A program made the translations under genes and the position numbers. Positions 128-46,680 of a DNA stretch of 64,000 nucleotides are shown piece after piece (the first letter of the stretch is position 1; each line of letters starts with the position of its first letter). The stretch is from Bacillus sp. UNC41MFS5 (GTDB lineage Bacteria; Bacillota; Bacilli; Bacillales_B; DSM-18226). The stretch is from positions 182,307-246,306 of the forward strand of contig NZ_JMLP01000005.1 of the NCBI RefSeq assembly GCF_000686805.1, written 5' to 3'. The notes below the pieces were generated by a model, which did not search any database, was not told the origin of the DNA, and worked only from the letters and a program-made list of their open reading frames with translations.

Positions 128-367
128 AAGTAAAAACCAGCTCCTAAAAGGAACTGGTTTGAAGTACATACTATGTAGCCGCATTTGCCGTATTAATATA
201 AGAAAGTTTTAAACCACCACTCCTCAAAGTGGGTGTTCTCAGAAACCCTTCCTGCATGTCCTCCAAGTCTTATAGACAGAGGCTTGTCATTCCAGTTCCA
301 ATGGTTAAACTCCCTTTTACAGCTTAAAGGTTAAAACTTTATTATGACTACGAACAACGCAGCTTGT
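128..367 (-). ncRNA. candidate structured small RNA, unassigned
   Basis: Read on the minus strand, a sigma-A-like promoter (402-374) is followed by a region whose ends pair: GGTTAAAACTTT at 329-340 against AAAGTTTTAAACC at 203-215 (plus-strand spelling). Inside are smaller hairpins, for example CCACT/AGTGG in the 3' half and CCTC/GAGG around a TATAA loop. A terminator follows at 134-160 with a T-rich tail on this strand. There is no convincing reading frame. Length and a long closing stem resemble 6S-like RNAs, but I do not recognise conserved 6S sequence. It could also be the 3' UTR of the peptidase gene that ends at 425. Confidence 0.5.
134..160 (-). terminator. rho-independent terminator
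   Basis: Stem AAACCAGCTCC/GGAACTGGTTT with one mismatch and a 5-nt loop. The T-rich tail (TTACTTTTTA) is on the minus strand, so it ends minus-strand transcription from the RNA candidate and/or the M24 gene. Confidence 0.7.
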
Positions 368-373
368 ATTAGT

Positions 374-33436: not shown

Positions 33437-33463
33437 GCTGTCGATTGACAGCCTTTTTTTTTT
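33437..33463 (+). terminator. terminator after gapB
   Basis: GCTGTC-gatt-GACAGC preceded by As and followed by ten Ts (33454-33463). Confidence 0.85.
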
Positions 33464-33571: not shown

Positions 33572-33600
33572 TTGCAAAAAAAATATAAACAAAGTATACT
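33572..33600 (+). promoter_or_regulatory. strong speD promoter
   Basis: TTGCAA (33572-33577), 17-bp spacer, TATACT (33595-33600). Predicted start about 33607, only a few nt before the closing stem of the leader structure. Confidence 0.8.
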
Positions 33601-33606
33601 AGTCAT

Positions 33607-33749
33607 CGTGAACTTCTTGAAATTAGGTAGCGATTAATTACTTAAAGGGTTAGGACCTCTCTGGACTAACTTTCCCCCGTGGTAGTTATAAGATACCGTC
33701 AATACATGATTTCAAGAAAGAACAAAAAGGTTAGAGGGGGAAAATGAAT
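33607..33749 (+). promoter_or_regulatory. structured speD leader with anti-Shine-Dalgarno
   Basis: The 143-nt leader has a 10-bp perfect closing stem (TTCTTGAAAT 33614-33623, ATTTCAAGAA 33709-33718) around three hairpins: 33625-33643, GTTAG/CTAAC at 33649-33670 and GGTA/TACC at 33681-33697. The unpaired TTTCCCCC at 33671-33678, in the junction, is perfectly complementary to GGGGGAAA at 33736-33743, the ribosome site of speD. This looks like a translational switch. I recognise no known riboswitch class. Confidence 0.6.
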
Positions 33750-34124
33750 ATGGAAACAATGGGACGTCACGTGATCTCTGAGCTATGGGGATGCGACTTT
33801 GAAAAATTAAACGATATGAATTTTATTGAAACGACTTTTGTTGAAGCAGCTCTTAAATCAGGAGCGGAAATCCGTGAAGTAGCATTTCATAAATTTGCTC
33901 CACAAGGTGTGAGCGGTGTCGTCATTATTTCCGAATCACATCTAACTATTCACAGCTTCCCTGAGCATGGATACGCCAGCATTGATGTCTTCACTTGCGG
34001 CGATTTAAATCCTAATGTTGCAGCAGATTATATTGCTGAGGCATTAAATGCAGAAACACGTGAAAATATTGAAATTCCACGTGGCATGGGTCCTGTCCAT
34101 GTGAAACAGGCAAAAGTTCTATAA
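33750..34124 (+). CDS. speD: S-adenosylmethionine decarboxylase proenzyme
   Basis: A 124-residue pyruvoyl enzyme giving decarboxylated SAM for spermidine synthesis. The self-cleavage site is in [14 protein letters not shown], where the serine becomes the pyruvoyl group; the catalytic His and Cys (VFTCGDL) follow. The ATG at 33750 gives METMGRHV and stands 9 nt after GAGGGGG; the ATG at 33744 is too close. The long leader suggests feedback control. Confidence 0.97.
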
Positions 34125-34146
34125 TCCTTATAAAAATAATTAGTGA

Positions 34147-34172
34147 AGAGGTGTATCTAAACATACACCTCT
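34147..34172 (+). terminator. terminator after speD
   Basis: AGAGGTGTAT-ctaaac-ATACACCTCT, 10 bp, then TTTTATATTTT. Confidence 0.88.
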
Positions 34173-34217
34173 TTTTATATTTTGTCTGTGTTAATGCATA
34201 TTGCTGATTTTGGCACC

Positions 34218-41502: not shown

Positions 41503-41655
41503 GGTGAAAAATTGAATACTGTTTTTGGGAAAAGAAGAAGCACCCGCTTCTCACCTGATTGACGCAATTAGCAGTTGGCAGGTTTTACTTGAACTTTTTG
41601 GTTTCATTACTTTTGTTCTGTAAAGTGTGGGTGCATTCATCCGCACTTTTTTGTT
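41503..41655 (+). promoter_or_regulatory. L20-type autoregulatory leader of infC-rpmI-rplT
   Basis: The 5' segment GCACCCGC (41540-41547) can pair with GTGGGTGC (41627-41634). That segment is also the 5' arm of the terminator AAGTGTGGGTG/CATCCGCACTT (41623-41648) followed by Ts. The two folds exclude each other, as in the known Bacillus leader where ribosomal protein L20 favours termination. ACCTG and CAGGT segments near 41554 and 41579 form an additional stem. Confidence 0.8.
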
Positions 41656-41790
41656 TGTGCAATAATAGCACTGCTAAAAAGTTTTATACCTGTTGATTCT
41701 TGTGTAGCGTTTTACGTTATGGTTTGAAAGGGCTTGTTATGATTTTCTTGACCAAGACGTTGTATTCGTGATAAACCTTGGAGGTGGCTA

Positions 41791-46362: not shown

Positions 46363-46680
46363 CAATATGGAATATTAAATGACGATGACGGAGAAAAGTA
46401 TCTTATTTAAAACCATTTAGGGAGAAAGTGCCGCGACTGAAAGCACTTTTATGGCAGGGATAAGAGAAGTTCACCTCCTGAGTTGGCATCGGGACCACGA
46501 TTAAAAGCAATAGCTTGAGAGTAGATTACTTGTCCAGCTACTTCCGCTTTCCGTGTAAAGATGCGCCGGCATATGCCGTTATCCGAATGAAGCGAACACA
46601 ATGTGTTTTACATAACGTGTTTACAAGGGTGGTACCGCGAAACTTTAACCTCGTCCCTTTCCAGGGATGGGGTTTTTTTG
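46363..46680 (+). promoter_or_regulatory. T-box riboswitch of pheST
   Basis: T-box sequence AGGGTGGTACCGCG at 46626-46639 followed by the terminator stem AACCTCGTCCC (46647-46657) / GGGATGGGGTT (46664-46674) and seven Ts. The Stem I segment GAGAAGTTCACC places a phenylalanine specifier TTC at 46470-46472, in the usual context after GAAG. Uncharged tRNA-Phe should cause read-through into pheST. Confidence 0.93.
46647..46679 (+). terminator. T-box terminator of pheST
   Basis: 11-bp stem with two G-U pairs, 6-nt loop, and a T tract at 46673-46679. Confidence 0.85.

Follow-up and report, generated by a model that had tools for sequence, protein, structure and literature searches.

SpeD commits SAM to spermidine synthesis, and in Bacillus sp. 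UNC41MFS5 its gene is preceded by a leader RNA (33607 to 33749) that the original prediction had read as an undescribed translational riboswitch. The question raised by this locus is whether the leader is a dedicated regulator of speD and, if so, how it would act and which signal it would sense. We put at roughly two in three the probability that it acts in cis as a switch of translation serving speD alone, most probably a riboswitch that responds to some metabolite of the SAM/polyamine branch, a reading based on comparative sequence analysis. Coordinates refer to the window, that is, the whole stretch of 64,000 nucleotides of contig NZ_JMLP01000005.1 that was analyzed, and features are on its plus strand unless stated otherwise.

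The speD locus and the layout of its leader

The source genome is Neobacillus-like, with the 18 best SpeD matches all belonging to Neobacillus or to Bacillus without a species name. Around speD we found the order gapB, speD, a small protein, nrdR, and two more genes, which match dnaB and dnaI in this order when compared with the annotated block of the plasmid NZ_CP015439.1. This 258-kb plasmid record of Anoxybacillus amylolyticus carries a leader as well (L333), within a chromosome-like block, polA-mutM-coaE-gap-speD-nrdR-dnaI. The window's speD, coding for S-adenosylmethionine decarboxylase (33750 to 34124), scores 139.9 bits against TIGR03330 (cut-off, 75.65). The mechanical open reading frame (ORF) begins two codons earlier, at 33744, but the true start is more likely the ATG at 33750, since orthologs conserve METMGR as the beginning of the protein and this start gives a spacing of 9 nt to the G-run. 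Neofunctionalized ornithine or arginine decarboxylases have been described among SpeD homologs (PMC10407285). Ten further SpeD proteins all keep the ESH, IH, and TCG residues of the window's SpeD, so that no sign of such a neofunctionalization is apparent at these residues.

Terminator-like hairpins stand on both sides of the gene, one with a T-run after gapB (33437 to 33461, stem at 33437 to 33452 followed by the T tail), which separates gapB from speD, and another after speD (34145 to 34174). The sigma-A-type promoter named in the original prediction, TTGCAA-N17-TATACT, is read at 33572 to 33600 (TTGCAA at 33572 to 33577 and TATACT at 33595 to 33600), and the transcript would start near 33607. 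A promoter consensus scan is weak by itself (3 sites versus 2.3 in shuffles), but the pattern TTG[C/A]AA-N15..19-TATACT precedes the core in 81/81 leaders (the window plus L001-L080). Two other predicted elements were read as described, namely, a 10-bp closing stem (33614 to 33623 with 33709 to 33718) and an exact complementarity between TTTCCCCC (33671 to 33678) and GGGGGAAA (33736 to 33743). The former contains a CCCCC stretch (the C-run, 33674 to 33678), which would be the anti-Shine-Dalgarno (anti-SD) element, and the latter contains the GGGGG Shine-Dalgarno sequence (SD) of speD (33736 to 33740). Elsewhere in the window, known RNA families above the gathering score are a T-box leader (46376 to 46661), an L20 leader (41526 to 41658), and 6S RNA (172 to 368, minus strand).

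Distribution of the leader and comparison with known RNAs

Relatives were taken from the best 80 of 582 confirmed SpeD matches, which come from Neobacillus, Mesobacillus, Cytobacillus, Peribacillus, Metabacillus, species of the B. subtilis group, and others. All 80 orthologous speD upstream regions contain CTTAAAGGGTTAGGACC without a single change. Once eight duplicates had been dropped, a 46-nt core showed seven variable positions, affecting 31 of 73 distinct leaders, mostly by one C/T difference. The 42-nt T1 core CTTAAAGGGTTAGGACCTCTCTGGACTAACTTTCCCCCGTGG (33641 to 33682), which is nearly invariant, occurs once in the window and in none of 100 shuffles.

A covariance model of the core (R1, the weak matches of which were fetched and inspected) found 189 of 398 Bacilli genomes at E values up to 1e-3, with one match each. 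In all 80 loci tested, speD lies downstream, at a distance of about 29 to 71 nt from the modeled core (80 of 81 fetched matches were used, L138 being the same locus as L095). A full SpeD above the TIGR03330 cut-off is present in 275 of the same 398 genomes, and the SpeD genes without an R1 match often have a remodeled leader upstream, in which these stems and their flanking loop (GGAACCAGGATTCAC...GTGAATGACGTAGGTCC) surround a different core. The covariance model of this shell of stems and flanking loop (R3) matched 174/398 genomes, at two places in 11 of them. Together, R1 and R3 detect leaders in 263 genomes, 262 of them within the 275 that code for SpeD, while in the only one outside this set (G263) the matching stretch lies at the edge of a contig. 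Among the 13 SpeD genomes without a model match, 12 were inspected upstream (G060 was left out), revealing a degenerate leader by eye in G026 and none in the other 11. The leader is also absent before the second speD copies of some leader-bearing genomes (L213, L218, L220, L286, and L294-L296). A phylum-wide draw of 398 genomes gave 11 with a match to model R2, three of which are Bacillota outside the class Bacilli and have it directly before speD. All 33 further loci fetched with R3 or by place contain speD, and no match before any other gene was seen in the fetched loci, with the R3 matches checked in part. Searches with two exact patterns found no viral copies. The speD leader is thus a real and widespread cis-regulatory RNA family, undescribed so far, rather than a curiosity of one species.

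Some loci depart from the common arrangement. In L179-L185, speD has no leader; judged by eye, the adjoining upstream DNA is the terminal part of a different coding gene, and speD seems to belong to an operon there. Two speD genes, one with a T1-type and the other with a T2-type leader, are found in G012, G052, G067, G095, G106, G117, G128, G161, G182, and G193 (family f12) and in G096 (family f35), and these genomes invite a comparison of the inputs of the two leaders.

Such a link with a single gene could also mean that the leader is a protein-binding site, for example of SpeD itself (translational autoregulation), with the protein locking or releasing the pairing between the C-run and the SD. 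Autogenous control predicts that the leader is found solely with speD, as it is in the loci examined, and conservation of the core extends from its pairing to its sequence. However, nearly the same core precedes SpeD proteins with 38 to 92% identity to that of the window (80 loci), and the near-identical SpeD-type proteins of G012 carry different core types (T1 in L242, T2 in L271). A shared protein ligand therefore fits poorly, and we consider this explanation quite improbable.

The original prediction had stated that no known SAM riboswitch class fits, and the Rfam search bears this out. No family of Rfam 15 matches the leader at the gathering score, none overlaps 33607 to 33749 on the plus strand at E values up to 10, and none was found in 16 diverse leader loci at E values up to 0.5. 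The sub-threshold matches (20 in total) lie at or near the gapB terminator in 19 cases; the remaining one is opposite the leader, on the minus strand, and scores far below the gathering threshold of its family. A known Rfam family, SAM riboswitches included, was rejected on these grounds. SAM-II, SAM-V, and preQ1 are pseudoknot-type translational riboswitches that pair the SD with the aptamer loop. The speD leader resembles them in the putative sequestration of the SD and differs, in a comparison made by Rfam scans only, in its predicted shape of an elongated hairpin with a large internal loop. The spermidine riboswitch, described as a SAM-I aptamer variant with 13 examples and a narrow spread (PMC10853860), is alike in that it belongs to Gram-positive bacteria, accompanies polyamine genes including speD, and plausibly has the same ligand. 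It conforms to the SAM-I aptamer, whereas the speD leader, present in 263/398 Bacilli genomes, has no match to RF00162 in the window or in the 16 diverse loci, a comparison made wholly through this family, as Rfam lacks a model of the variant itself. A search of the literature, with supplements and most subscription journals outside its reach, found no description of the speD leader or of its core sequence.

The odc1 motif (PMC8632094) is similar as a leader of a polyamine synthesis gene with a pseudoknot and control of the ribosome site, but it is found in Alphaproteobacteria, before ornithine decarboxylase, and includes a conserved upstream ORF (uORF) of 11 residues, which the speD leader does not have. 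The core could itself be a short uORF coding for a leader peptide, with speD controlled through its translation in the manner of uORFs that respond to polyamines. In the window, the core has one open frame running to a stop codon, and in 7 of 63 distinct leaders this frame can be entered from a GTG close to the transcript start. Nevertheless, an upstream in-frame ATG, GTG, or TTG without an intervening stop exists in only 8 of these 63 leaders, the frame of the core with respect to the GTG takes all three possible values (39, 15, and 9 leaders), and related cores carry indels that are not multiples of three, one of them of 52 nt. With so few usable starts and no fixed frame, a leader peptide is refuted as a general mechanism, and we give it next to no weight.

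Predicted fold of the leader and putative partners of its C-run

The original prediction had drawn three internal hairpins around a junction, but conservation favors one elongated hairpin in which P1, P2, and P3 are followed by a conserved large internal loop and by P4, and the alignments support this predicted fold. Covariation is clearest in P3 (33635 to 33641 with 33682 to 33688), with compensatory changes in 6/7 pairs over 90 sequences, and in P4 (GUUAG at 33649 to 33653 with CUAAC at 33666 to 33670, plus the inner CC at 33656 to 33657 and GG at 33663 to 33664), where they affect 3/7 pairs. The P3/P4 covariation score was 0.341, compared with 0.166 ± 0.008 in shuffles, a test inflated by relatedness, and at most 0.102 with slid partners, a control that retains relatedness. 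The alignment used (A4) includes 90 of 92 references (L086 and L127 were omitted); L121 was omitted for an insertion. This insertion (L121, from G022) consists of 52 nt in the tip of P4 and, by eye, is able to form a hairpin. The search of speD upstream regions with covariance models, proposed along with the original prediction, has turned the leader into a family in which the anti-SD is kept and P3 and P4 covary.

The evidence for the outer stems is of another kind. P2 (GGUA at 33626 to 33629 with UACC at 33694 to 33697) is supported by pairing rather than covariation, with 97.5% of cells paired and one row with a double change. In P1, 98.5% of cells are paired over 30 Neobacillus-type leaders (A5), and one pair has compensatory changes (G-C to A-U in three rows). 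Another 28 Bacillaceae leaders (A6) form a different closing stem that uses the conserved 5' end GUGAACUUC, with 96.2% of cells paired. Both alignments were split by hand according to the closing stem, leaving L035 and L047, among others, in neither. A lack of covariation in the closing stem had been named beforehand as a result that would speak against the prediction; the outcome is weakly positive for the 30 Neobacillus-type rows, with their one compensatory pair, and negative for the 28 others, which show none. The remaining alignments comprise 54 of 73 distinct leaders (A1), 41 of 58 (A2), and 37 of 87, picked for diversity (A7). RNAalifold missed the closing stem on the first alignment, and the folding energy of the single sequence is ordinary (z of 0.13, with 106 of 200 shuffles folding as well), so the case is carried by the comparative evidence.

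The anti-SD of 16S rRNA is CCUCC. Judged by sequence, GGGGG is for this reason a poorer ribosome site, yet it is a perfect partner for the CCCCC of the leader. GGGGG is found within 32 nt before speD in 161/161 leaders (149/149 distinct ones), compared with 32 of the 226 other SD-bearing ORFs at the fetched loci and 7/49 ORFs of the window, controls that rest on mechanical ORFs and a 17-nt stretch. An earlier count had looked up to 120 nt after the core and was repeated within the 32 nt before speD. Loss of the complementarity between C-run and G-run in orthologs had been another outcome expected to contradict the prediction; among gap-free rows, this pairing is kept in 27/27 for two pairs and in 30/30 for three (Neobacillus-type).

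Both sides have changed in the T2 type, with CUCCU in the core and AGGAG as the SD (e.g., L215 and L257), and L223 and L298 show the CUCCU/AGGAG match without any GGGGG. Most T2 SDs still contain a G-run, and T2 may represent one or two evolutionary events only, so that its rows are not independent changes. We also examined 87 shell-type leaders, picked by a pattern in which the P2-P3 shell is obligatory and which excludes the window's own type. In 79 of them, the core tail and the SD could form a helix of at least 5 Watson-Crick pairs, with a mean of 22 and a maximum of 33 in shuffles that keep composition. The C-run of T3 pairs more weakly, with UUCCC/GGGAA in 8/13 leaders, CCCU/AGGG in 4, and no C-run pairing in 1. 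The strict Watson-Crick count was devised after seeing the result of a G-U-tolerant score, by which T2 cores do better with SDs of their own type (19.4 versus 15.7 with T1 SDs), while no such preference exists for T1, T3, or T4/5 cores and 10% of shuffled cores score as high as the native mean. The signal in the whole-flank duplex energy is weak (-16.3 versus -13.4 kcal/mol with swapped partners, and 11% of leaders beat 95% of swaps).

The same C-run has an internal upstream partner of at least 3 bp in all 87 shell-type leaders (shuffles, mean of 42 and maximum of 54). The pairing is mostly GGG/CCC in T1, AGGA/UCCU in T2, and GGGG/CCCC in T4/5. In the window, the proposed rival partner is the G-run within the core (33647 to 33649), which pairs with CCC both in the minimum free energy fold of the single sequence and in the RNAalifold consensus. 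A mutually exclusive alternative pairing of the C-run is therefore present at the sequence level.

A candidate strand-exchange switch and its input

Two partners would thus compete for the C-run, which lies in the 3' strand of the internal loop. In the ON state, it would pair with the core G-run in the 5' strand of this loop, leaving the SD free and speD translated, while in the OFF state it would pair with the GGGGG downstream as a pseudoknot and block the SD, with the signal shifting the balance between the two pairings. The data on SD pairing and on the internal partner support such an exchange, since the C-run is complementary to both and T2 changes both sides; the leader also has its own promoter and flanking terminators. 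The assignment of states follows our preference for feedback repression, in which the closed state would be stabilized. The link of the leader with speD suggests a signal from the SpeD step, for which our ranked guesses, presuming a small molecule, are spermidine feedback, then decarboxylated SAM (dcSAM), and then SAM. Of the translational riboswitch originally proposed, the structured, conserved speD leader with its kept anti-SD and a competing internal partner stands, and the multi-hairpin junction does not.

Among the RNAs co-immunoprecipitated with Hfq of B. subtilis, a 2013 study listed a 79-nt "Unknown or speD leader region" (peak at 2966841 to 2966919; ratio, 14.1), noting that earlier reports had suggested a leader there (PMC3574147). 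It is probably the same leader, which is present in the close relatives of B. subtilis L071, L072, L076, and L078; the section of that paper on this region describes neither its structure nor its conservation or mechanism. The finding would suit a leader controlled by Hfq or by a small RNA acting in trans, and the leader might also attenuate expression constitutively or in response to temperature, with no dedicated ligand. Yet the loop sequences are conserved beyond the need of a hairpin that blocks the SD, and the competition of two partners for a single run points to a switch that has a specific input. We regard these alternatives as improbable and continue to favor a metabolite-responsive switch.

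Which part of the leader would hold the ligand is less clear, since the most conserved element depends on the lineage and a single common pocket is not evident. In the Bacillaceae it is the core, nearly invariant in the window's family, while elsewhere it is the P2-P3 internal loop, with the motif GGAACCAG/GRCGYAGGUCC conserved in Paenibacillus-like families. By text patterns, 266 distinct speD upstream regions, a set enriched by the searches for the leader, divide into 134 with the T1 core only, 78 with the P2-P3 loop only, 31 with both, and 23 with neither. The ancestor may have had both modules. One could go further and see here a new riboswitch superfamily with two separable modules, each perhaps sensing a different metabolite (e.g., dcSAM or SAM, and spermidine), which we consider unlikely. 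If true, one leader would read both the substrate and the product, with lineages keeping one or both modules, and the family would include a natural RNA sensor of dcSAM, none of which is named in the titles or abstracts that we found.

The leader is likely a new riboswitch class in a heavily studied bacterial group. The three-way complementarity among its core G-run, C-run, and SD records a strand-exchange switch with unusual clarity, and because the leader is nearly universal in the B. subtilis lineage, the question can be tested directly in a model organism.
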